Shown piece after piece: positions 3,243-15,917 of a stretch of DNA of 15,946 bases; position 1 is the stretch's first letter, and each line of letters starts with the position of its first letter. Source of the DNA: an uncultured Opitutales bacterium (lineage in GTDB: Bacteria; Verrucomicrobiota; Verrucomicrobiia; Opitutales; UBA9783); contig CAKUXH010000014.1 of the NCBI GenBank assembly GCA_934700265.1, positions 1 to 15,946 on the forward strand, read 5' to 3'. The notes below the pieces were generated by a model. It was not told the origin of the DNA and searched no databases. It was given only the letters and a program-made list of their open reading frames with translations. The translations under genes and the position numbers were made by a program.

Positions 3243-4328
3243 TTATTTACACCAATCTGGTAATTTATGCTTACCACACTTAGCTGGTATCAATTCATCT
3301 GTTACCGCATCACGTACAAAATGCCGTCCCTTTGAATCAAAACATTCTACTTCATTATGAGTAAAATCACCATATCTGATTTCTTTTGTTCGTTCATTTC
3401 TATACGCTTTATGGTTGCCCTGCTTTCTGTAAAATTTCCATTCGCCTGTTTCCTTTAACTTTTTAAAATAGGAATCCAAATTAAGTCTGGTCCTTACAAT
3501 ACGTTTTGTTACTTTCTCAATATTTTTAACTGATTTTCCAGATGCTACTGCTAAAAATTTAAGGCTTTTCCCAACTTTTCCAATAGGCGTTAACTGAAAT
3601 CCAATTTCTGCAAAAGAAGAAACAATATCTTTTCCCTGAGCTAAATTCGAAATAGCTTCTAATGGAATAATAAAATTTACACCATCGTATGTAATTTGCT
3701 TATAGTTAGCACCTAACAAAGCTTTCAACGCTTTAATTTGTGTGGCAATACTATTATTCTCGATAGCGAGTTCTGCGGTGGCATCGGAAATCTCAATATC
3801 CATGCGGCCAATGAGTGCTGTTCCTGCAGCAGCTAGACGGCTATAACGCTCAATCTGCTCGGTTAATTCAGCCTCTAAATGATCCAAATAGGTCAATTGA
3901 ATCAGCGCTTCCGCATCCTGCAACGATGGCAAATCCCCATACTCGGCATGATGTGTACGCAATTCCTCCTGTACTTCCGCCCTAGTTTGTTCCAAAGCCC
4001 GCTGGATCATAGCATTGGCAACGATTTCGCCGACGGTGGCGCCGGTGCCTCCTGCGAGGAAATCTCCTCCGGTGAGTTCTGCGGCAGTACCTCCTAATAC
4101 GAAATGGCAGACTTTATGCATCAGCCAGGACATATCGCCATCGCCATGAGCATAACGTTCACCGATTTGATGCGCGAGATTCGCTGAAACGGTATTGACG
4201 GCCGCGCCCCCGAGTCCCGACAGGACATTTCCGCCGCATACCGCTGATGATACGTCGGTGGTGAGGGCTGCAGCACGCAAGCCTAATGTCGCTAAACCAA
4301 AAAAACAAACGATAAAAAATTTTTTCAT
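3243..4328 (-). CDS. Orphan Cdi-type toxin with own signal peptide and colicin E3-like rRNase domain
   Basis: This 361-aa protein has three parts. Residues 1-18 (MKKFFIVCFFGLATLGLR) are a Sec signal. Residues 17-188 are a pretoxin region clearly homologous to residues 919-1088 of the large CdiA-like protein: both start LRAAALTT, share IGxxVGEI-like and AASGTAxxGR blocks, and have nearly the same length. IENN (189-192) marks the junction to the variable toxin. The last ~85 residues match the colicin E3 cytotoxic domain in layout: Y319, D321, H324 and E328 give DxxHxxxE, followed by GRHF and a basic tail, as in 'YxWDxxHxxxE...GxHlG' of E3. E3-type enzymes cut 16S rRNA at the decoding site. The gene overlaps the stop of the previous immunity gene (ATGA) and is followed one base later by its candidate immunity gene. 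It lacks any FHA stalk, so it could be an independently secreted toxin or a silent cassette for recombination. The catalytic assignment rests on motif spacing only. Confidence 0.75.
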   Translation of the reverse strand: MKKFFIVCFFGLATLGLRAAALTTDVSSAVCGGNVLSGLGGAAVNTVSANLAHQIGERYAHGDGDMSWLMHKVCHFVLGGTAAELTGGDFLAGGTGATVGEIVANAMIQRALEQTRAEVQEELRTHHAEYGDLPSLQDAEALIQLTYLDHLEAELTEQIERYSRLAAAGTALIGRMDIEISDATAELAIENNSIATQIKALKALLGANYKQITYDGVNFIIPLEAISNLAQGKDIVSSFAEIGFQLTPIGKVGKSLKFLAVASGKSVKNIEKVTKRIVRTRLNLDSYFKKLKETGEWKFYRKQGNHKAYRNERTKEIRYGDFTHNEVECFDSKGRHFVRDAVTDELIPAKCGKHKLPDWCK

Positions 4329-4750
4329 TCTTCTTCTGGTTTCTTTTCTATTTCTCCCTTTTTCAGCATATCTTCAGCGGTATTATATCTGCTATAACGA
4401 TCGATAAATTCCCATTGGCCAATACATAGCCCATCGCTTTCTTGTTCGATATCAAAACAAGAATTATCTTCTTCTTTAGCAACAAAAGCAAATTTATCAT
4501 TATTGCATTCCATCATCCATATGAAGTTGTTGATAGCTCCATCTATTGCATCTACCAACATTGTTGTTACAAGCGATTTTTGTTCTTCTGTGAAACCTAA
4601 TGCCTGTATCTTCTTGTGCAAAGCTATTCTAAATGTAGGTTTAGTAGATCCATCTATTATTTTTAAATGACTCTCTATAGTGGTATCTCTTGCTTCCACA
4701 ACAACTTTTCTTCCAAATTCATAAATGGTATCTAATTTTTTATTTTCCAT
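4325..4750 (-). CDS. Candidate immunity protein for the HNH toxin
   Basis: This 141-aa protein has no signal peptide or membrane segment and an acidic, Glu/Asp-rich C-terminal half ending KKPEEE. Its ATG lies inside the end of the CdiA-like gene (11-base overlap), and its stop overlaps the next toxin start as ATGA, so it is translationally coupled on both sides. I do not recognise the family. The central segment (about residues 65-95, VDAIDGAINNFIWMMECNND...FAFVAKEED) looks like an amphipathic helix followed by a strand. The immunity role is inferred from size, acidity against a basic toxin tip, and position immediately after the toxin, the usual cdiA-cdiI order. Confidence 0.65.
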   Translation of the reverse strand: MENKKLDTIYEFGRKVVVEARDTTIESHLKIIDGSTKPTFRIALHKKIQALGFTEEQKSLVTTMLVDAIDGAINNFIWMMECNNDKFAFVAKEEDNSCFDIEQESDGLCIGQWEFIDRYSRYNTAEDMLKKGEIEKKPEEE

Positions 4751-7700
4751 CTTTTTTACCCCACGGCATATCTGTTGGATGTCTAATACCTTTTTCTTTT
4801 AAATTCCACTGAGAACGTGCAACAATATCGCGTGCCATTTGTTCGCTAGCACCACCTGCTTGCAAAGCTTGAACCGCAATACGATTTTGTTCTTCTCGGG
4901 TCATTGGTTTACCTGATTTTTTTAATTCTTCGCAAAGACGACGCTGTTCGGCACTTACCAAATCATGATCTATCCCTAACCTTTTCATCTCATCATTACT
5001 TAAGCACAAGGCTTTCTTGGGATTATATTTTGGTTCCGATTTGTAAGCACTTTTCATATGAACATGATGTCCACCACCAGAGCCGCCGTAAGGTGTTAGC
5101 GTAAATTCCTGAACTTCCTTCGTAGAAGCCTTCATGCCTCTGGATATAATCCTTGATTCTCCGGCAAAAGCTATTTGTTTGGAGGAGGCAAGAGATTTGA
5201 TAAAATCATTAAAGATATAAGTTGATTTTTTTAATACTTTTCCCACACCTTTTATAGCTTTAGGCGTGGTAACATCCCAAATAATTTCTGTAGCTACTTC
5301 GCGACTAACTTCCGATTTCGTTTCCTCATCTTTTTCGCAATAAGCTTGATAATACTTATATGCAAGTTGCAAAATTTCTCCAAGTGTCAATGCATATCCT
5401 ACAGGGCCAATCGCTCTACCGACTACCTTTCCAGCAACTTTAACACCGCCCCAAACCGAAAGATTATTTTCGGTAACAATTTGAGCCGAACAATGAGTAT
5501 CTGAAACGCTTAATCTTCCAACAAATGCTGTTCCAGAAGCAGCCAATTGTCCAATTTGTGCTGGCGACAGTCCATCTTGATGCATGTGCAAACGCTCCGC
5601 AAAAAGCTCGTTGAATTCTTCATTCGAAAGCGTTTGTCCCATGTCATGCATGACTTGCGCCTGCTCAAAAGTTTCTTGCAGAGCTGCTTGCGTCCTGCGT
5701 TCCAAAAAGATTTCACCAACTGTTTCGCCAATGATTGCTCCGATAGCTCCCGATAACGGATCTCCTCCTTGCAAACCAACTGCTAAAGCTTGAGTTGCTC
5801 CATGAACAACCTTATGCGTAACCTCACCCAAACGTCCATTAGCATTGGCCTCACCTACCTCATGAGCTATTTGAACCGCTCCGGTTTCAATGACTGCTCC
5901 AGCCATTCGACTTGCTAAATCTCGGCCCACTTTTCCACCGGATATCGCTGTCGATACGCCTGTGGTCAGGGCTGCAGCACGCAAGTTGCGTCCTAAGCGG
6001 GTCGTGAAGTCGAGCCCTTTAACAGCCGCCGATTCCGCAGCTAATTCAATACCAACAGCGGATTTGCCAGCTTTTTCAGCTTCAGCTATAGCTCCTAAAA
6101 CTTTTTCATCTTTAGCTAGCTTGGCTTTATCCACAATGGGTTTGTCAACGAATTTCGAAACAAGACCAGCAGCAATGGCGCTTGCGACGAGGCCTTTTAA
6201 ATAGCGTCTATCGGTTAATTCCTTGAAAACTTTGCCTAAATCGCCACCATTGGCAATGCTTGAAACAATGAACGTGTTCGTAATGCCTTCCATCGCAGCA
6301 CCGACACTTTTCGCAACGACTGTGGGAACACCCGTCAAACTGTCAGAAACAAACGTTGCAATTTTCCCGCCTGTGTAGATCGTCAATGCTACCACCAGGA
6401 ATGTTCTTAACGGCATGCTCATTTGCGTTGTGTGATGGTACCATTGCTCGTGCGTCTCTAGTACTTCCCGCAGATCAACTTCGTACATGGCGCACAAATC
6501 CACCACCCATGGCGCCAAACGGCCCTTCTTCACTTCCGTCATCAGCCGCCCAATCACGCGCACATCATCATGCACCATAATCGGCTCAATCACGGCTATA
6601 TTATTGTAGCCTTCATTGTGCGCCGTTGCCGTAATAAAGCCGCTATCCTCGTACTCCTCTTGATAGTACGACCGCTCACGACCAGCTTTTAGGCGGACTT
6701 CTCCTGTCTCAGAAATGAGCTCTGTCTGCTGCGATTTTGCTGACAAAGCTACCGTATCTAAATTATCATGCGCCCGAATGTGCAATTTTCTTCCAGCCGA
6801 TATTTCTGGACGAATTAAATGCTCTTGCAAATCGGTTGTACTTCCGGAAGCATCACTGAACCAGCCGCTACTTTCCCAAGTATAATGGGCATATTCCGAC
6901 TCGATAAACGGAATAATTTGTACACCACGATGCGAAACTAGTGTAAAATCTCGTCGTGCATTAATGCGTGGCGCTTCAAAAATTACCTCGCCATTGGTAT
7001 TTACGAAAATATTCTGCGCAGTAATATATGAAAAGATTCCATGACGTCCGTGAATGTCATACGTTGAACTTCCATCGCCTCCAGACGAACGATATTCCAA
7101 AACCGACGGAACAACTTGTATGCTATCGCCCGAACTTAGCGTAATATCGCCATCGGCTGAAATACGGCTGCCTGAAAGCACCAACCGACTCCCGGCTTCA
7201 ATGGTAATATCGCCACCACTTTTTATTTCCATATCGCCACCGGTTACCGAATGAAATACCGCATCATTTCCAGAACGTACAACTTCGGTTTGCGCAACAA
7301 TCAACGGTGCCATTAAATGGACTCCGGTAGCACCTTGAATCAAGCCGTTCGTGCTTATAATGCCAACACCCGTTTGCATATTAACAGCCCCACTTCTGCT
7401 AATAAGCGCACCGCCTTCATTTTGCGCAACACCACTTACATTAATCGTTACGTCACCTTTCGTTGCCTCTATAAGCCCTTGATTTACCCAATTGCCATCT
7501 GCCGTAAAATTCAATTCCCCTGCGACAACCATCGCCGGAGCTACGTGTAATGATTGCAAAGTAGCCTTACATGGGAACCAAACTAATGTAAGAAGTTTTT
7601 CTCCATTAATCGTAACTTCTTGCAACCAAACAATGTCCTTCTTTAAATGCTCCCATACTTCTTTCGTCAAATGTCCTAACTGCATTACAAGCTTATCTTC

Positions 7701-8738
7701 GACCTTCAATCGATGGTGCTCTTCAACGGTATTTTTATAAAATTGCCACAGCTGATCGTCTTCGTTCGTAAATCCAGGTAATAACCGCCGTCCCACTAAA
7801 TTTAGCATCTGATTGCGAATACGTTCTACTTCAATATCCGCTAAAAATGTTTTTCCATCTCGTTTTTCACTACCGTACTGCTCTAACAATTGTGTCGTAA
7901 TATTTCTCTGCTTTCCAACAATCGTCTCCTTAACCAACGATACGACTTGACAATGACCATCGACCACCAATTGCCCCAATGTCGATGCAACATCCCGCAC
8001 CTTCGAATTATCACATTCGACGTTCTTAACAGCTGCCTTAGGCGCTATAAAATCGCCTTGACATACCCATGTACCAATATTCTGAAACGAAATTAATTCC
8101 GGCGCCCCTAATCTGATTATCTGAACAGCACTACGACGCCATGTTTTGAGCTCTGTAAATTTCCCCAATAACGCTCCTCGAATCGTCCAACGAGCATCCT
8201 TATCAATATACAACCGCTGACTATTAACGATACAATCCCCATCGATAACAACTTCGCCACGCACCATTATGGTGGGCTTATCTTTCAACGGACATATCAT
8301 CAAACCGCCCTGTAAATACGTATACTGATTATTTCCTAAAATTATCCGATTTGCTGTTATAACAAAATGACTATTCGTCTCACCACTTATAACAAGCCCA
8401 TCATTTTTGATATTATTTCTCAGCCATAATAACGCCCCATCAATTCGAACACCTAATCCATCGGCCGCTAATTTCGGATCGCCATTCACCTTTTCCAACG
8501 GTGCCCAATCAACCGCAGACGTCTTACAAATTATTGTCGTCTGCTTTAATTTATCTGCCGTAAAACTAAAATTATACGTAACAGTTGCTATTTGAGCTCC
8601 TGCATCATTAAAACGTTTAATTTCCAACGATGGGATATAATTCGAGTAAGTCAACTTTACTTCGTATTTATCCGCAAATAACGTCGTACACCACGTAAAT
8701 AATAAAAACTGTACGAAACGTTTCATAAATGTTTTCAT
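4740..8738 (-). CDS. CdiA/FHA-like polymorphic toxin with HNH (GHH-type) nuclease tip
   Basis: The protein has 1332 aa. It starts at the ATG at 8738 behind TAAGG, with a Sec signal (about residues 1-22, ...TWCTTLFA). Residues 25-390 are beta-rich with no recognisable repeats. Residues about 400-720 are filamentous-haemagglutinin-like, with many 'GGDITIEAGSRL', 'ADGDITLSSGD' and 'AGRKLHIRAHDNL' style strands of a beta-helix. Residues 777-1088 include a DUF637-type pretoxin segment (PLRTFLVVALTIYTGGKIA and LRAAALTT...). TENN (1089-1092) takes the place of the VENN junction of CdiA. The C-terminal 244 residues are the toxin, ending in an HNH/Endo VII-type domain: GGHHVHMKSAYK (1222-1233), YNPKKALCLS, then helices to DMPW. 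The histidines of HHVH are the likely metal and catalytic ligands. It is short for a CdiA. I see no NPNG/NPNL-type TPS secretion signature, and no CdiB gene lies nearby, so the export route is uncertain. A candidate immunity gene overlaps its end. Confidence 0.75.
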   Translation of the reverse strand: MKTFMKRFVQFLLFTWCTTLFADKYEVKLTYSNYIPSLEIKRFNDAGAQIATVTYNFSFTADKLKQTTIICKTSAVDWAPLEKVNGDPKLAADGLGVRIDGALLWLRNNIKNDGLVISGETNSHFVITANRIILGNNQYTYLQGGLMICPLKDKPTIMVRGEVVIDGDCIVNSQRLYIDKDARWTIRGALLGKFTELKTWRRSAVQIIRLGAPELISFQNIGTWVCQGDFIAPKAAVKNVECDNSKVRDVASTLGQLVVDGHCQVVSLVKETIVGKQRNITTQLLEQYGSEKRDGKTFLADIEVERIRNQMLNLVGRRLLPGFTNEDDQLWQFYKNTVEEHHRLKVEDKLVMQLGHLTKEVWEHLKKDIVWLQEVTINGEKLLTLVWFPCKATLQSLHVAPAMVVAGELNFTADGNWVNQGLIEATKGDVTINVSGVAQNEGGALISRSGAVNMQTGVGIISTNGLIQGATGVHLMAPLIVAQTEVVRSGNDAVFHSVTGGDMEIKSGGDITIEAGSRLVLSGSRISADGDITLSSGDSIQVVPSVLEYRSSGGDGSSTYDIHGRHGIFSYITAQNIFVNTNGEVIFEAPRINARRDFTLVSHRGVQIIPFIESEYAHYTWESSGWFSDASGSTTDLQEHLIRPEISAGRKLHIRAHDNLDTVALSAKSQQTELISETGEVRLKAGRERSYYQEEYEDSGFITATAHNEGYNNIAVIEPIMVHDDVRVIGRLMTEVKKGRLAPWVVDLCAMYEVDLREVLETHEQWYHHTTQMSMPLRTFLVVALTIYTGGKIATFVSDSLTGVPTVVAKSVGAAMEGITNTFIVSSIANGGDLGKVFKELTDRRYLKGLVASAIAAGLVSKFVDKPIVDKAKLAKDEKVLGAIAEAEKAGKSAVGIELAAESAAVKGLDFTTRLGRNLRAAALTTGVSTAISGGKVGRDLASRMAGAVIETGAVQIAHEVGEANANGRLGEVTHKVVHGATQALAVGLQGGDPLSGAIGAIIGETVGEIFLERRTQAALQETFEQAQVMHDMGQTLSNEEFNELFAERLHMHQDGLSPAQIGQLAASGTAFVGRLSVSDTHCSAQIVTENNLSVWGGVKVAGKVVGRAIGPVGYALTLGEILQLAYKYYQAYCEKDEETKSEVSREVATEIIWDVTTPKAIKGVGKVLKKSTYIFNDFIKSLASSKQIAFAGESRIISRGMKASTKEVQEFTLTPYGGSGGGHHVHMKSAYKSEPKYNPKKALCLSNDEMKRLGIDHDLVSAEQRRLCEELKKSGKPMTREEQNRIAVQALQAGGASEQMARDIVARSQWNLKEKGIRHPTDMPWGKKDGK

Positions 8739-8827: not shown

Positions 8828-10378
8828 TTATCTCAATTCGGGAGAACCTTGTCGTGAAGGTAATGTTGAGCTTGCTTCCGATCTTGGCTTACGTCTTTCT
8901 TGCAATTGAACCATCGTTGCAAAAACCGGATTGGCTTTCAACTCCTGCAATTCAGCTGTATATTCTTCCAAATTAAATAATACAGAACAAATATCCGCTC
9001 CTTGAGCAATCTCATCCAATTTTTGCTGATACTGCTCGAAGGTTGCTGCAACTGCTTTCATAACACCCGGTTGCGCCTTATCCGCCTTGCCATTGACAAA
9101 CGTTTCAACTTTGCCTTTTACTGTGCCGAGAACTTCGAGTTTGGAGGAGATGAGCTCGTTCAGCGAGGTTTGAGTTCCTGAATGTACAAAGCCGTCCCAA
9201 TAAACGGTTCGTCCGCCACCCCCAAAGAAATTTCCCTTAAAATAACTTGTGTGAACACAGTTTAAAACATAAGTTATAACTTGCTTATTGGTAGCATATC
9301 CTTTTAACGATATGGTTCCGTCTAAATTGGAAGCATACATGAAACTGCCTACAGTCTGAGACGGTTGCTTTAAAACTAAACGATCATGAACGATAAATAA
9401 TGCACTTTTACCTTCTTTTCTAGTAAAATTTTGTATATTAGTAATAATTCTTTTACATCCTAAACAGCTATCTCTAAAACCCCATGCATAATATGATGGT
9501 GAACATGAATCTTTAGGGTCAAATTTTAATTCTCCACCATAAGTAAGCAGGAAATATCTCCTATCGCTTGATTGTATTCTATTACCTCGAGCATCTGTTA
9601 AAATCTTCTCTTTTTCCACAAATCCTCCCACGACAGGTTCCGTTTCGCTCTTATTAACCAGAGATTTCAGCGTAGCATTACCACCGATGCGCACTTCACC
9701 CGCATGATTGATGAAATCGCAAGGTTCACCATTGAAATCCAGGATACAATTTATCTGCCCTTTGTTCGTAATTTTTGTACCCGGCGATAAAATATCAGCT
9801 CGCAATATCGTAATTTTCCCGGATGCAACATTTTCCAATGTTTGCAGCGCCATAACTTGCCAGCCTCGCTTTACCGTCATTGTGCCCGAATTTTTAATAC
9901 TTGTGAGCAAACACAGCCAGTCCCTATCAACTTTTAATGTACCTACATTTTCAAACAAAATCGCTTTGTTTAAAAAGAAATTTTCGGTCACATTCAGCGT
10001 TTGATTTTTTTCAATGATCACCTTATTCGGATGATCTATACACAAGTTACCATCGTAGGTCCCTTGTATGCATAAATCCAATGTAGGCTTCAATTTCAGC
10101 TCTATACCATCAATTACAAACTTCGCTAGTGTCGGTTGCACTAAATCAAAATGAGCGTCATCTTTCATGTTTTTACGCCCCAAAGTCCAAGCATTTCCGG
10201 CTTTCTTTAATACAATTTCCTCACTACTTGCAACACCATCATCGCCGTTATAATTGACAACGATTTTCGTTTCTGTACCTCTCGTATCCGTAGTGAACTG
10301 AACTGACCCCGCATTTAGAGCCATCCATGAACCCGTGATTCCACCGATCCATAAGTTTATTTTGTTTTTGTTTTTCAT
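8828..10378 (-). CDS. Exported beta-rich FHA-like protein upstream of the CdiA-like gene
   Basis: This 516-aa protein starts MKNKNKINLWIGGITGSWMA LNAG, an acceptable Sec signal. Residues 25-330 are strings of short strands with Asn, Gly, Thr and Val ('VENVASGKITILRAD'-like; 'NKGQINCILDFNG'; 'HAGEVRIGGNATLKSL'), typical of right-handed beta-helix or FHA-like secreted proteins. They resemble the N-terminal third of the next gene (IDG..., 'VIIEKNQTLNVTENFF' against 'RIILGNNQYTYLQGG'). Residues 290-310 hold three cysteines (CSPSYYAWGFRDSCLGC). The C-terminal ~100 residues turn helical and charged, ending in a Ser/Arg/Pro tail. It has no toxin domain and no outer-membrane-barrel features, so it is not CdiB. 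It may be a surface partner of the CdiA-like protein or a paralogous stalk without a toxin tip. Only a weak GAAGAA lies well upstream of its ATG. Function is unknown. Confidence 0.5.
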   Translation of the reverse strand: MKNKNKINLWIGGITGSWMALNAGSVQFTTDTRGTETKIVVNYNGDDGVASSEEIVLKKAGNAWTLGRKNMKDDAHFDLVQPTLAKFVIDGIELKLKPTLDLCIQGTYDGNLCIDHPNKVIIEKNQTLNVTENFFLNKAILFENVGTLKVDRDWLCLLTSIKNSGTMTVKRGWQVMALQTLENVASGKITILRADILSPGTKITNKGQINCILDFNGEPCDFINHAGEVRIGGNATLKSLVNKSETEPVVGGFVEKEKILTDARGNRIQSSDRRYFLLTYGGELKFDPKDSCSPSYYAWGFRDSCLGCKRIITNIQNFTRKEGKSALFIVHDRLVLKQPSQTVGSFMYASNLDGTISLKGYATNKQVITYVLNCVHTSYFKGNFFGGGGRTVYWDGFVHSGTQTSLNELISSKLEVLGTVKGKVETFVNGKADKAQPGVMKAVAATFEQYQQKLDEIAQGADICSVLFNLEEYTAELQELKANPVFATMVQLQERRKPRSEASSTLPSRQGSPELR

Positions 10379-10622: not shown

Positions 10623-10989
10623 TGCTACTCCGTTTTTGGGTTTTACCTTCAATCTTCCAGAAACACGATAATTTAAAAATTATAGCAATATCCGATCAAC
10701 AATCCTTTTTGTAAAAATAATATGTAAAAAGCCTTAAACAAATAAGCAATAGATCGCTTCTATTATATCCAGCAACCTTCGTAGAATTTATCAGTCCGAA
10801 CATTTTTGGTTGAAAATAATTTAAAAATATTTGTCAAGTGTTTTTGTGGGAAATTTTATCAAATTATGCGTAAATATCCCCCCTCGTCCGATCTTTTTCC
10901 CAATTCGTCACAACTGATATACACTGCCACATTTGATTTTGTGGCAGTGAGTTAAGATTTGGATATCCACTGAGAACAGCCGTTGATAT
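10623..10989. other. Long intergenic region between the two operons
   Basis: This AT-rich stretch has no credible gene. On the minus strand TTGACA at 10837-10832 (preceded by C) could be a -35 element for the FHA/CdiA-like operon, but I see no good -10 at the right distance. The right part holds the 43-bp repeated element (10907-10949), followed toward the ASCH gene by about 40 bases with nothing obvious. No T-tract terminator for the upstream operon is visible. Confidence 0.4.
10907..10949. repeat. 43-bp repeated element, left copy, with 10-bp perfect hairpin
   Basis: It starts GTCACAACTG and ends in a perfect inverted repeat, CACTGCCACA / TGTGGCAGTG (10922-10931 and 10940-10949), around the 8-base loop TTTGATTT. 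A gapless match (35 of 43 bases by hand count) lies at 15875-15917 in the same orientation, with the same hairpin layout and an 8-base loop of TTTTATTT. Compensating changes keep the stem paired in both copies. Lying just past the ASCH gene, it may be a 3' stem-loop, an operator, or a recombination site. Confidence 0.6.
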
Positions 10990-11595
10990 CTATTTTGATT
11001 CCGTAAAATAATCTTTATGATCTAATTCATCTAATTTTTTATCAACAATTTTTTCAGATTCTTTATCTAGGATATCATTTCTTTTTCGTTTTTCCAGGTA
11101 ACTTTTTTTAACTTCATTCGTTTGATCTGATGGTTTTCGCTTTATAATTTCTCCAAAATTATTTTTTTGTACATCAATACCAATGGCAACACATCCTTCT
11201 GGAGCCCTTCGACCTCCTGGGAAACTTTCGTAAATTCGAACACCACCCTCAATATCACCAGGGCAAATAAAAGGTAACATGTTTTCTACTCCTTCCGTTT
11301 CTAACATCTTTCTAAATGAACTATACTTATGTAAAAACTTGATTTTCCCAAAAATCCATTCATTACGACGTTTATCTTCCAAGACAATAGTAGAACCTTT
11401 TCGCATTTTTTTGCATGTACTACGGTAGACCCGTCCTTCTGCGGTTTTTGTTCCATCACAGAGCCATTTCAAAAATGGCCGTTGGGGAGTATTAATTATT
11501 GGCAAATAAAAATCACTTTGGGGATGTCTATCACCTAATACTTCCATAGTCATAAATGTAACAATCATTGATATAAGTTTAACGTTTTTATTCAT
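10990..11595 (-). CDS. ASCH-domain protein with signal peptide
   Basis: The protein has 201 aa. Residues 1-21 (MNKNVKLISMIVTFMTMEVL) look like a Sec signal, unusual for this fold. Residues about 40-141 match the ASCH (PUA-like, RNA-binding) domain: FLKWLCDGTKTAEGR (41-55) corresponds to the 'i..G.KT.E.R' motif, IFGKIKFLHKYSSFRKML to the 'V..i..Y.sFeem' strand-helix, then EGVENMLP, IYESF and GCVAIGID. Residues 152-201 are a lysine-rich tail (KRKPSDQ...KKSYLEKRKR). Some ASCH proteins bind RNA, and E. coli YqfB hydrolyses N4-acetylcytidine; the lysine of its triad aligns with K50 here, but its threonine is replaced by glutamate. The gene is third in the acetyl-CoA synthetase operon: its ATG overlaps the previous stop (ATGA) and it has a strong AAAGGAG site. 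ASCH fold likely; activity unknown. Stop is TAG. Confidence 0.65.
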   Translation of the reverse strand: MNKNVKLISMIVTFMTMEVLGDRHPQSDFYLPIINTPQRPFLKWLCDGTKTAEGRVYRSTCKKMRKGSTIVLEDKRRNEWIFGKIKFLHKYSSFRKMLETEGVENMLPFICPGDIEGGVRIYESFPGGRRAPEGCVAIGIDVQKNNFGEIIKRKPSDQTNEVKKSYLEKRKRNDILDKESEKIVDKKLDELDHKDYFTESK

Positions 11596-12773
11596 AATTT
11601 ATTCTCCTTTATAAATGTTATATATTTTTTTAATTTATTACGTAGATCATGATTAAAAGATTTATCATAACCATGTGCAATTTGATTGCGATCGTAATTC
11701 ATCATTCTCCAAACTTTTAATTTTTCAGGAGTAAGAATTTTACACTGTTCTGCTTTCCTTATCACAGATTGATGTTCAAGATTAACCAAATCCATTCTCA
11801 TTTCCTTGGCATAACTTATGGTAAATTCATTACAAATCGCCATCAGATAATAAGCCACTTCATCATCACTCAAACACTTTGGGTATTCCAATTTTTCAAT
11901 CAAGAAATCTAAATAATTTACATCTTGACTTTGCGAAAGTATATCATTATAAAATGCCATCAACATCCACCAATCATTCGCTGCATGATTTTTAAAATAA
12001 AATGCACCATATTTTTGATAAATTAGTTTTAATGAATTTTGTAAATCTTTATTAACACTTATAGAAGGATTTACCTCATTAATATAAGCAACAAGCCATT
12101 TTTCTGTATCGAACAAAATTTTAGCTTCTTCTTCATGATCTTTATTGGGATAAGAGGCATTAAACTCACTTCGATAATCTCGCTGCAGCTTTATATTATC
12201 ACAAATCCATGATGAAAATTCACTTCCTTTCAAAAATTGCTGTTTAAATAAGCGCGTACATTCATTAGCAATCAAAAAACGTACAGAATATAACAAACGA
12301 TTATCTTTAGATTTAAATTTTAATAAATTTTCTTTTAAAGAAATCCAATATTTTTGTAATTTTTGCGTTTGAATAATTGCCTTTTGTAACCATTGATCAC
12401 GCTCTAATCCTTTTAAAAGCCATTCCAAGTTTCGTAATAAATCTAAGTTATTATTAATTATAGCTAAAAAAGCATCCGTATCCTCTGTTGCAAAATAATG
12501 CTTTTGTAAAATTAATAGATATAAGTTATTACCTGCAGGTTCCATATCCCAATCAAGAGTTGTCCATCGAACTATCGTTTTCTTCCAATTGTGCTTATCG
12601 ATATCAGAAGCTTTTTCCAGCAATTGCTTTCGATATTCTATCCCCTCTTCATTATCAAATAAAACAATCTGATCCAGAATGCCTATTGCCTTTTCTTTAT
12701 CTTGTTCACTTAATTGAGCATACCCTTTAGAGAATATGCTAATAATCAAAAAAAATATATATATAAATTTCAT
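11592..12773 (-). CDS. Exported helical protein ending in a HEPN-like RNxxxH motif
   Basis: The protein has 393 aa. Residues 1-20 (MKFIYIFFLIISIFSKGYAQ) form a clear Sec signal with an A-x-A-like site. The rest is mostly alpha-helical and rich in Trp, Lys and Leu, with no family I recognise. Near the C-terminus NYDRNQIAHGYDKS (359-372) contains R362-N363-x3-H367, the Rx4H motif with the polar second residue typical of HEPN RNases. The following IAHGYD and Lys-rich helix resemble HepT/DUF86 ends ('RN.iaHgY'). HEPN domains are usually cytoplasmic nucleases of toxin-antitoxin, Abi and CRISPR systems, so a signal peptide is unexpected and suggests delivery outside the cell or into a host. The ATG overlaps the acetyl-CoA synthetase stop (ATGA), with GGAGGT inside the end of that gene. 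No adjacent MNT antitoxin is present. The HEPN call rests on one motif. Confidence 0.5.
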   Translation of the reverse strand: MKFIYIFFLIISIFSKGYAQLSEQDKEKAIGILDQIVLFDNEEGIEYRKQLLEKASDIDKHNWKKTIVRWTTLDWDMEPAGNNLYLLILQKHYFATEDTDAFLAIINNNLDLLRNLEWLLKGLERDQWLQKAIIQTQKLQKYWISLKENLLKFKSKDNRLLYSVRFLIANECTRLFKQQFLKGSEFSSWICDNIKLQRDYRSEFNASYPNKDHEEEAKILFDTEKWLVAYINEVNPSISVNKDLQNSLKLIYQKYGAFYFKNHAANDWWMLMAFYNDILSQSQDVNYLDFLIEKLEYPKCLSDDEVAYYLMAICNEFTISYAKEMRMDLVNLEHQSVIRKAEQCKILTPEKLKVWRMMNYDRNQIAHGYDKSFNHDLRNKLKKYITFIKENKL

Positions 12774-15628
12774 TTATTTACTACCTCCAATAAGAAAGAA
12801 TCTCTTAATTCTTTCAGTAAATTTTGTGATTTAATAATTTCTAAAACAGCGTCTATAAGCTTTTGACGATCAACTTTCAACATTTTACAAAAATTTTTAT
12901 CAAAAGTTGGTTTTTCCAAAAACTCTTCAAATGTTACTTGGGGAAGATATTTTCCTCCTAATGAACATGTAATTGTCTTTTTAGGCAAATTTAATTTTAA
13001 ATGAGCCATATGAACCCCTTGCGCATTACGAGACACAACAGACATTGTTTCATCTGTTGCCATCATAGGGCGAAGAGCATAATTATAAGGTTCTTCTACA
13101 CCATAGCTAACAAAGAAAACAATCTTATTATCTTCTTTTTTTTGTTCTGTCCAAGGTTTCTCGCCCACCCTTTCATGCCCATAACAAACAACCTTATCAC
13201 CATCAAATTCAAAAGTCCACAAACCTCTTTTTTCTCCCATATCTACTGTCATTTTATCTCCAGTCTGCGAAAAAAACAGTGGAACAGGTACATCTAAATT
13301 TGGTTCTAGTAGCACAAACCCTTTATCAGATTTATTTTTCTCATCTTCATAATAAATACATATTGCTGTATGAGAAAACTCATCCCAACCTTCTTGTCTA
13401 AATCTTTTAGACAATTTTACTGGAATAAAATGAGCATTCAAATCACTAGGTAGAGACAAAAACATCTGATTTATCAGTGTAAAACAAGAACCATAATTTT
13501 CTTTTTGTAATGCTACTTTTTTCACATCATAGTTTTTCAATGCATCCAAAATCGAAACATTTTTCAGTGATTTATAGTGTTTCAAAAAATCAGAAATAGG
13601 ATATAATCGATTATATACTGTTGATTGCAAATGTTTACTTAAAAGAGGCTGTAAAATATTTTTTAACGCTTCTTTCCCTAATGTACACTTTGTTTTTATA
13701 GGATAAAAAGGTGCGCTTGATAAACGAATTTTCTCTTTTTGAGCTTTTTTATAGTCACGTATTGCATTCTGTACATCCTCAACAGCACTCGGATTAATCA
13801 AAGTTTCAGTGTTACCAAAATCAATCTCATCAAAAGCAGACTTAAGCAATCGACGAATTATTTTCCCACTTCTATTTTTAGGAACTTGTGGAACAAAAAT
13901 AATATGACTTGGTCGAGCATAACTTCCCATTTCTTTTTGAACACGAAGTTTTAACTCATTTGCAAGGGCCTCACAACCTAATTTAGCATCTTTTAAAACA
14001 ACAAAAGCTGCAATTGCAGAACCTTTTACTTTGTCCTGTACTCCTATTACAGCTGTTTCAGCAACACGCAAATCATTTAAGATTGATGTTTCTACTTCTG
14101 CAGTTCCAATTCGATGTCCGGCAACTTTTAAAACTTCATCTGCGCGTCCGCCCACATAAATATAGTCATCAGTATCTTTTTGAGCTCTGTCACCAGCATA
14201 ATAATATTTACCATCCCATTTGCAAAAATACGTTTTCAAATAACGTTCATTGTCTTTATAAATACCACGCATCATTGAAGGGAACGGATGCAATAATGCT
14301 AAAAATCCTTGTTTAACACTATTTCCGGCTTCATCTAAAACATCTGCTGCATACCCCGGTAAAGCTTTTGTGATAGAACCTGGTTTTAATTTTGTAACCC
14401 AAGGAATAGGAGAAATAGCTAAAGCTCCTGTTTCTGTCTGAAACCAAGTGTCAACAATTGGACATTTTTTATTTCCGATAAATTCATTATACCAATGCCA
14501 AACTTCTGCTTTTAACGGCTCCCCTATTGATCCCAACAAACGCAAGGTTGCTAATTTATGATTACCTATGCAATTTTTTTCTCCCCATTGCATTAACATG
14601 CTTATGAAGGTAGGGGCAGTATAAAATGTTGTAACTCGATATTTTTCAATAAGGTAAGCAAATTGATCTTTTCTAGGATAATCGAAAGATCCATCATACA
14701 TAACCTGTGTCATTCCATTACACATAGGCCCATATACAGAATAGCTATGTCCTGTAATCCATCCTGGATCTGCTGTACACCAATAAATATCAGTTTCAGG
14801 TTTTGCATCAAATACTAATTTAAAAGATGTATTAACACCAGTTAAATAACCTCCTGTCGTATGAATTATCCCTTTAGGCTTCCCTGTGGTTCCTGAAGTG
14901 TATAACAAAAACATCATATCTTCACTCTCCATTGGAACACATGGGCAATGTGCGGACATTTTCGAAACAGTATCTTGCCAATAAAAATCTCGCCCGGGAA
15001 CCATATTTATTTTGTCATTATTATACTTAAAAACCAAAGTCGTCTTTATCGATGGACAATCGGGTAAAATTTCATCAACCACTTTTTTATAATTGATAAT
15101 TTTCCCATGACGCATTCCTCCATCTGCAGTTACTAAAAGGGCAGCTTCACTATCATTTATTCTTGTACGAACAGATTCTCCGCCTATCCCTCCAAAAATA
15201 AAATTATGTACCATTCCTACTCGAACAGCAGCCAACATTGCCATCAGAGACTCAGGAACCATTGGCATATAAATAGCAATACGATCCCCCTTTTTTAATC
15301 CTAAAGATTTATAATAATTAGCTAAACGATTAACTTCATCATACATATCTTTGTAGGTAAGGACTCGACAATTTCCCTTCTCATTTTCCCAGTAAAACGC
15401 CACTCGAGAACCATTACCTGCTAACACATGCCTATCTAAGCAATTGTAACAAGCATTAATTTCTCCATCAATATACCAAGAAGTAAAAGGGAAACCTGAT
15501 CCCTGTGTTTTAGACCAAGGTTTAAACCAATCTAGATTTTTTGCCTGATCTTCCCAATAAGAAACGTAATTTTCTGCTTTTATTTGTTGAGATGTCTCTG
15601 TTGAAGCAAATAAAACTCCTGACATCAT
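12770..15628 (-). CDS. acsA-like: Acetyl-CoA synthetase fused to a Cys-His papain/NAT-like domain
   Basis: The protein has 952 aa. Residues 20-640 are a complete AMP-forming acetyl-CoA synthetase (acetate + ATP + CoA to acetyl-CoA + AMP + PPi): P-loop LLYTSGTTGKPKG (241-253), TADPGWITGHSY (285-296), GSIGEP (366-371), DTWFQTETG (393-401), YAGD (477-480), GRADEVLKVAGHRIGTAE (494-511) and catalytic K589 in NRSGKI. The position equivalent to Trp414 of the Salmonella enzyme, which closes the acetyl pocket, is Phe396 here. Typical enzymes stop near residue 650; this one continues for ~300 residues. The extra part has GSC715, H753 in FSHTAICIYY, and E775 in VLLEPN, an order and spacing like the Cys-His-Asp/Glu triad of arylamine N-acetyltransferases or transglutaminase-like proteins (C-H gap 38, as in NATs). 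The ATG at 15628 has a strong GGGGAGG; a second ATG follows directly. The first residues MMSGVLFAST resemble the end of a signal peptide. First gene of a three-gene operon. Confidence 0.85.
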   Translation of the reverse strand: MMSGVLFASTETSQQIKAENYVSYWEDQAKNLDWFKPWSKTQGSGFPFTSWYIDGEINACYNCLDRHVLAGNGSRVAFYWENEKGNCRVLTYKDMYDEVNRLANYYKSLGLKKGDRIAIYMPMVPESLMAMLAAVRVGMVHNFIFGGIGGESVRTRINDSEAALLVTADGGMRHGKIINYKKVVDEILPDCPSIKTTLVFKYNNDKINMVPGRDFYWQDTVSKMSAHCPCVPMESEDMMFLLYTSGTTGKPKGIIHTTGGYLTGVNTSFKLVFDAKPETDIYWCTADPGWITGHSYSVYGPMCNGMTQVMYDGSFDYPRKDQFAYLIEKYRVTTFYTAPTFISMLMQWGEKNCIGNHKLATLRLLGSIGEPLKAEVWHWYNEFIGNKKCPIVDTWFQTETGALAISPIPWVTKLKPGSITKALPGYAADVLDEAGNSVKQGFLALLHPFPSMMRGIYKDNERYLKTYFCKWDGKYYYAGDRAQKDTDDYIYVGGRADEVLKVAGHRIGTAEVETSILNDLRVAETAVIGVQDKVKGSAIAAFVVLKDAKLGCEALANELKLRVQKEMGSYARPSHIIFVPQVPKNRSGKIIRRLLKSAFDEIDFGNTETLINPSAVEDVQNAIRDYKKAQKEKIRLSSAPFYPIKTKCTLGKEALKNILQPLLSKHLQSTVYNRLYPISDFLKHYKSLKNVSILDALKNYDVKKVALQKENYGSCFTLINQMFLSLPSDLNAHFIPVKLSKRFRQEGWDEFSHTAICIYYEDEKNKSDKGFVLLEPNLDVPVPLFFSQTGDKMTVDMGEKRGLWTFEFDGDKVVCYGHERVGEKPWTEQKKEDNKIVFFVSYGVEEPYNYALRPMMATDETMSVVSRNAQGVHMAHLKLNLPKKTITCSLGGKYLPQVTFEEFLEKPTFDKNFCKMLKVDRQKLIDAVLEIIKSQNLLKELRDSFLLEVVNK

Positions 15629-15630
15629 AG

Positions 15631-15639
15631 TTCCTCCCC
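15631..15639 (-). promoter_or_regulatory. Strong ribosome binding site of the acetyl-CoA synthetase gene
   Basis: On the minus strand GGGGAGGAA lies just before two successive ATG codons (15628 and 15625). The second has the better spacing (about 8 bases). It supports translation starting downstream of the 16-bp repeats in the present allele. Confidence 0.75.
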
Positions 15640-15658: not shown

Positions 15659-15738
15659 CCGGTTAAACGCGAAACCGGTTAAACGCGAAACCGGTTAAAC
15701 GCGAAACCGGTTAAACGCGAAACCGGTTAAACGCGAAA
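15659..15738. repeat. Five perfect tandem copies of a 16-bp repeat
   Basis: The unit CCGGTTAAACGCGAAA is repeated exactly five times (80 bp) with no mismatch, ending 30 bases before the acetyl-CoA synthetase ATG. Each unit junction forms a small inverted repeat, CCGGTT...AACCGG. The unit is not a multiple of three, so copy-number change shifts any reading frame that passes through it. The absence of mismatches suggests recent expansion or ongoing slippage. Confidence 0.95.
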
Positions 15739-15791: not shown

Positions 15792-15873
15792 GACAAAAAT
15801 TAATATTTTTTGTCACTCCGGCCACTAATTAACACTGGTATTTTTCTCCCTTTGTTTTTACATTGTATATTTT

Positions 15874-15914
15874 TGTCACAACTGTCACAAATTGTCACAT
15901 TTTATTTTGTGACA
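15874..15914. promoter_or_regulatory. Array of TGTCACA boxes, possible operator
   Basis: TGTCACA occurs three times in direct orientation at 15874, 15883 and 15893 (spacing 9 and 10, about one helical turn), then inverted as TGTGACA at 15908-15914. A further TGTCAC is at 15811-15816. Regular one-turn spacing suggests binding of a regulator. The gene controlled may be the acetyl-CoA synthetase operon or a gene beyond the right edge. Confidence 0.45.
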
Positions 15915-15917
15915 GTG
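15875..15917. repeat. 43-bp repeated element, right copy
   Basis: This copy matches 10907-10949 without gaps (35 of 43 by hand count), sharing GTCACAACTG exactly and the stem-loop end TGTCACA / TGTGACA with an 8-base T-rich loop. The two copies are in direct orientation and bracket the three-gene operon. It overlaps the TGTCACA box array. Confidence 0.6.

Follow-up and report, generated by a model that had tools for sequence, protein, structure and literature searches.

We analysed a three-gene operon on the minus strand of a 15,946-nucleotide stretch of DNA (hereafter the window; contig CAKUXH010000014.1 of assembly GCA_934700265.1) from an uncultured Opitutales bacterium. Three consecutive open reading frames (ORFs) of 952, 393 and 201 residues, running from 15628 to 10990, encode in this order an acetyl-CoA synthetase (ACS) with a C-terminal extension, a protein with the HEPN motif RX4HXY and a protein with the ASCH motif GxKxxxxR. 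The extension may, from its predicted model, have a NAT-type fold, and the second and third proteins carry putative Sec export signals. A cytosolic acyl-CoA maker and acyltransferase together with two exported proteins of RNA-related families is best read as a modifier plus exported effectors, and the reading that we tentatively favour is that a cytosolic ACS-NAT enzyme acylates the exported HEPN/ASCH pair ahead of its export. The combination matches no described system that we found, and each of the three genes is conserved.

Both gene junctions of the trio are ATGA overlaps and a Shine-Dalgarno-like site stands at the start of each gene, that of gene 1 at 15633..15639 (this and all trio features given below are on the minus strand). 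These features argue for a bacterial trio whose genes are probably coupled in translation as a single unit; the overlaps support the single coupled unit proposed in an earlier reading of the same DNA (hereafter the original prediction). The third-position GC content was 21-22% in all three trio genes versus 24-45% in seven other measured genes of the window. Database relatives are designated here by P-numbers: P0001 and P0002 for gene 1, P0004-P0009 for gene 2 and P0011-P0027 for gene 3. The longest contig was 210,876 bases for each of P0002 (gene 1), P0006 (gene 2) and P0013 (gene 3), and this identical value is strong evidence of a single contig. At least one relative therefore probably has the three genes together as well, so that the trio would not be confined to this DNA; such confinement was the outcome that the original prediction had named as speaking against it.

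Residues 1-624 of gene 1 (13757..15628) form the ACS module. Over residues 12-624 the full domain set of an AMP-forming acetyl-CoA synthetase was found (TIGR02188; Pfam PF16177, PF00501 and PF13193), with scores of 772.2 bits for TIGR02188 (cut-off 724.95) and 795 for NF001208 (cut-off 657) and 44% identity to E. coli Acs. Alignment to the latter placed the catalytic lysine at Lys589 (E. coli Lys609; codon 13862-13864), and the equivalents of K609, R526, R515, D500, D517, G524 and R191 were retained in all three fusion proteins, i.e., gene 1, P0001 and P0002. Family scores and active-site residues thus bear out the acetyl-CoA synthetase fusion described originally: gene 1 resembles Acs of TIGR02188 in its full-length domains, catalytic Lys and most of the checked active-site residues, and differs from it by the addition of a 310-residue extension. 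At the place of Trp414, which caps the acyl pocket in E. coli/Salmonella Acs, the alignment showed Phe396 (14441..14443); the three fusion proteins have F at this position, whereas the E. coli and Cytophaga enzymes have W, so the cap is not kept. All three also carry Ile for Val386 and Gln for Arg584, the latter residue differing in Cytophaga too. Passages of two published studies state that the Acs Trp restricts acyl size (PMC8383264) and that W414F increases the Km for acetate (PMC8511477). With Phe in this place, acetate is the likely, not certain, substrate of the module.

The extension itself, residues 641-952 (12773..13708), is proposed to be a NAT-like cysteine acyltransferase domain. 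Its putative acyl acceptor is Cys715 (13484..13486), within G-S-C-F-T, its putative catalytic histidine is His753 (13370..13372), 38 residues further on, and its putative third residue is Glu775 (13304..13306), placed by eye where the compared NATs have Asp; all three residues were invariant in the three fusion proteins. A search for relatives of the extension covered 1795 candidates whose length was 0.55-1.75 times that of the whole protein, a range that leaves out shorter stand-alone proteins; at E <= 1 it found P0001 and P0002, both fused likewise. Identity across the three fusion proteins was 75% over residues 641-952 and 95% over residues 701-720 around Cys715, from which we take the extension to be under constraint. 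For comparison we used 31 NATs, of which 30 belong to a single phylum, the one containing genome G001, and every one had a C-H-D triad. The Cys-His spacing of 38 in the extension falls within the 36-39 of all 31, and about 74 domain residues precede Cys715, as compared with 66-90 in NATs. The predicted model of the extension, of low confidence, has a helical start, the Cys at a helix start and strands next. When structure matches to this model were re-ranked, NAT-family proteins took ranks 1-9 and 18 among 50 rows; the top two rows were the geldanamycin amide synthase GdmF, and 4dmo, a Cys-His-Glu NAT by its title, was also among the rows. The product of an ACS is, moreover, the co-substrate of NATs. 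A NAT-type fold is thus supported at the level of a predicted model. The extra Cys-His domain of the original prediction is indeed present; it had been left unnamed there, and a NAT-type acyltransferase is its best current reading.

Several results weigh against this assignment. The last third of the extension model fits other folds better than NAT, and a Foldseek search with the model gave no NAT among 50 rows and no first-rank match. PF00797 did not match the extension, P0001 or P0002 at E <= 10, in a search whose filters drop most matches above 0.1. Local and global hhalign comparisons of the extension with NAT were negative against permuted, reversed and decoy controls (one of the 51 decoys being NhoA itself), and the best local alignment, which set His753 on the NAT His, had a chance score. 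Searching solved structures by sequence turned up no suitable relative for the extension. The surroundings of the Cys, GSCFT, depart from the G[YF]C[FY]E of 31/31 NATs, and the distance from the His to the acid, with Glu775 placed by eye, is 22 versus 14-15. Set beside the NAT/ansamycin amide synthase family (PF00797), the extension is therefore alike in its helical start, Cys-His spacing and best structure rows, and it differs in the missing sequence-level match, the GSCFT motif, the Glu as third residue, the longer loop and the fusion to an ACS. If it is a NAT, acid activation and amide formation would be joined on one chain, an architecture absent from the open-access literature searched, where nothing was found on a NAT fused to an acetyl-CoA synthetase; the main text of one NAT survey (PMC11213898) does not contain the words ‘fusion’ or ‘fused’.

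Gene 2 (11592..12773, 393 aa) begins with a signal-peptide-like segment, MKFIYIFFLIISIFSKGYA (12717..12773; mean hydropathy 2.95 over 12 residues); this and the other signal-peptide-like calls were made from hydropathy and by eye. Similar starts were seen in P0004-P0007. The HEPN domain occupies residues 287-393 (11595..11915) and includes RNQIAHGY (11667..11690), which alignment identified as the RX4HXY motif of HepT-type HEPN proteins; the motif was present in 6/7 aligned gene 2 proteins, the other one, P0007, diverging ahead of that region. In structure comparison the predicted model matched 1wwp and showed the HEPN four-helix fold. A Foldseek search with the same model gave no first-rank match, with 1wwp in 32nd place; among solved structures, searches by sequence turned up nothing suitable as a relative for the HEPN protein, and neither PF08780 nor PF01934 reached its cut-off in the window protein or in four scanned relatives. 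Precomputed database annotation places PF08780.17 on P0004, P0008 and P0009. The HEPN fold of gene 2 is thus well supported as a prediction, and the HEPN motif noted originally stands on both the RX4HXY residues and the fold. In a study of HepT/MntA (PMC7641770), the partner MntA modifies the Tyr of RX4HXY by adenylylation, which neutralises the RNase. Our operon resembles this HEPN/MNT system in having a HEPN-like domain with RX4HXY and an ATP-using neighbour enzyme, whereas in gene 2 the HEPN domain is preceded by an export-signal-like start and by some 265 residues predicted to form helices. No MNT or nucleotidyltransferase domain (GSX10DXD) was found in the ten scanned window proteins.

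Gene 3 (10990..11595, 201 aa) likewise starts with a signal-peptide-like segment, MNKNVKLISMIVTFMTMEVLG (11533..11595; mean hydropathy 1.81 over 12 residues). Its GTKTAEGR (11431..11454) is by alignment the ASCH motif GxKxxxxR, as given in PMC5615036, and this motif was found in 17/18 aligned ASCH members, the remaining one, P0017, beginning downstream of it. The window protein scored 21.0 bits with PF04266 (cut-off 21.2), and 15/18 members matched at E <= 0.01. Profile comparison gave PH0355 (2z0t; 2.2e-19) and PF0455 (4.8e-17), both deposited as uncharacterized, which we take to be ASCH proteins, and PHROGs gave one weak match, of the ASCH protein to an RNA-binding family (E 5e-4). Motif and profile matches agree with the ASCH protein of the original prediction, so that an ASCH domain in gene 3 is well supported from its sequence. 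Compared with known ASCH proteins (PH0355/PF0455, YqfB, ZmASCH), gene 3 shares GxKxxxxR and the profile match to PH0355 and PF0455; it adds an export-signal-like start and a charged tail, and the nucleophile Thr of YqfB is replaced by Glu. The C-terminal tail contains KRKR (11080..11091), like a monopartite nuclear localization signal, which hints at the nucleus as a target site. KRKR occurs in 5/6 ASCH tails longer than 30 residues; in shuffles of the five KRKR tails it arose in 0.3-0.7%, and the less strict pattern K[KR]x[KR] in 33-69%. Among papers that mention both HEPN and ASCH, two (PMC12839542, PMC10853773) describe ASCH domains as readers of modified bases in defence systems, and in PMC8195603 ASCH appears among the references alone.

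By eye, the signal-like start of gene 3 recurs in P0011-P0016 and, in a longer form, in P0022; P0018-P0021 start at or inside the segment, P0017 starts later, and P0023-P0027 are without it. P0022-P0027 are shorter ASCH relatives with 46-56% identity and no charged tail, only P0022 keeping the signal-like start. The signal-less shorter relatives P0023-P0027 suggest that an export signal was added onto a cytosolic ASCH protein. Sec export of genes 2 and 3 is thus supported as a prediction. Gene 1 does not look Sec-exported: its start, MMSGVLFAST, has no positive charge ahead of a short, weakly hydrophobic stretch. Just upstream lies a 16-base tandem repeat of five perfect copies (15659..15738, plus strand), and a stop within this array in the gene 1 reading frame, together with the strength of the Shine-Dalgarno site, favours MMSGVLF as the gene 1 start. 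The exported effector set originally proposed may accordingly comprise no more than genes 2 and 3, and the ACS with its unconvincing N-terminus falls outside it.

In the favoured reading, the ACS half would activate a short carboxylic acid, acetate or one a little larger, to the acyl-CoA, and the NAT-like half would load the acyl group on Cys715 by means of a Cys-His-Glu triad and hand it to an amine or hydroxyl. Gene 2 would be a Sec-exported HepT-type HEPN RNase and gene 3 its Sec-exported ASCH RNA-binding partner, and gene 1 would acylate this RNA-targeting pair before export, either keeping it harmless or activating it. Since all three genes are probably coupled and the acyltransferase alone has no export signal, acylation of the exported pair by gene 1 seems the likeliest link. 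The modification of HepT by MntA offers one parallel and HlyC, which acylates haemolysin, another: HlyC-type systems also combine a cytosolic acyltransferase and an exported protein in one operon, with a different fold and acyl source and with a substrate relation that here we infer only from gene order, as we do the direction of the effect. We know of no NAT-family enzyme that acts on a protein toxin. A more specific version, in which self-fuelled acylation controls the exported HEPN RNase (e.g., at the Tyr of RX4HXY) and ASCH steers it to RNA, strikes us as quite improbable; if true, it would provide a counterpart to the HEPN/MNT system that works by acylation. An exported HEPN RNase and an exported ASCH protein would bring usually intracellular families (toxin-antitoxin, RNA metabolism) into secretion biology.

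Two alternatives concern gene 1. The extension could be another papain-like domain, of transglutaminase or peptidase type, or have an unrelated fold, and would then transfer no acetyl group. NATs and transglutaminases have a common core, the NAT signature is kept only in part, the model is of low confidence, and neither Foldseek nor Pfam nor profile comparison supported NAT; against this, NAT rows dominate the structure re-ranking, the extension is fused to an acetyl-CoA maker, and the segment ahead of the Cys is helical and of NAT length, whereas transglutaminase cores have no helical segment there. We regard this explanation as a serious possibility, short of probable. In the other alternative, gene 1 would be an amide synthetase dependent on ATP, N-acylating a small amine (a drug-like amine, a polyamine or a secondary-metabolite precursor) as NAT-family amide synthases do, with genes 2 and 3 related to it by position only. 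The presence of GdmF in the top two structure rows fits such a metabolic role, as does the replacement of the pocket-capping Trp by Phe396, which suggests an altered acyl pocket in the light of PMC8511477 and PMC8383264; but the two ATGA overlaps and the probable recurrence of the trio favour a common role, and no biosynthetic gene was recognised among the other scanned window proteins, so that we consider it unlikely.

The remaining alternatives assign other targets to the exported pair or to the enzyme. The bacterium could live inside a eukaryotic cell and export HEPN and ASCH, perhaps with the ACS, into this host to hit host RNA, KRKR sending ASCH to the nucleus; this would be compatible with an extension of another fold. 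Signal-peptide-like starts on two of the three genes and secreted-looking neighbours (the HExxH protein at 51-1136 and CdiA-like proteins) are in line with it, and part of a paper on the amoeba parasite Babela takes many signal-peptide proteins as host-secreted. KRKR in 5/6 long tails is the sole sequence hint of a host target; P0013, from the 210,876-base contig, is without it, however, the tails are Lys-rich and their shuffles often carry the looser signal, no outer-membrane route was recognised among the ten scanned window proteins, and the N-terminus of the ACS does not make a convincing signal peptide. Host targeting thus seems somewhat unlikely. An RNA acetylation switch, in which the NAT-like half would place acetyl groups on N4 of cytosines in RNA and ASCH would remove them, is suggested by the E. 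coli ASCH protein YqfB, an N4-acetylcytidine amidohydrolase according to PMC6972931. The essential Thr24 of YqfB (fourth in KTIT) is, however, Glu in 17/17 members covering the motif (KTAE), in a register set by the motif, the automatic alignment having left Thr24 unaligned; genes 1 and 3 would, besides, act in different compartments. We rejected this writer/eraser pair as very improbable indeed.

In viral contigs none of the three (HEPN protein, ASCH protein, extension) had a relative, and plasmids gave no match to the extension or the HEPN protein (the ASCH protein was not tried there), so a phage or plasmid origin of the trio was rejected. The ACS was <60% identical in all 3001 matched plasmid records, and phage DNA gave five matching records, all short stretches of ACS gene. 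The species genomes, scanned with the fusion protein only by short exact peptide patterns, yielded one distant ACS (Cytophaga, 43%), and a close relative of the gene 1 fusion is thus probably absent there. PADLOC returned for four scanned sequences only Cmr5, for the extension (E 0.017), which we took as noise, and identity with a defence system was rejected on this basis.

Elsewhere in the window, the protein at 51-1136 starts with a hydrophobic segment and contains HEMLH, a metallopeptidase-like motif, with no Pfam match at E <= 1, and a 516-residue protein at 8828-10378, with no Pfam match above cut-off, adjoins the DUF637 gene. The latter, at 4740-8738, encodes a long CdiA/filamentous-haemagglutinin-like protein (DUF637) and is followed by a small gene; at 3243-4328 a shorter protein repeats the DUF637 end and continues into a different C-terminus, again with a small gene next. 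Judged by sequence, these genes resemble a polymorphic-toxin locus that includes a displaced cassette along with immunity genes, and such CdiA/DUF637-like neighbours suggest interbacterial competition. The trio is flanked by two copies of a 46-base hairpin-containing element in the same orientation, one 41 bases past the trio end (10904..10949, plus strand) and one 244 bases before gene 1 (15872..15917, plus strand). No other site in the window matched either copy at >29/46. The copies are identical at 37/46 positions, 8e-6 such pairs being expected from base composition, and they could represent an intergenic repeat or mark the ends of a mobile cassette.

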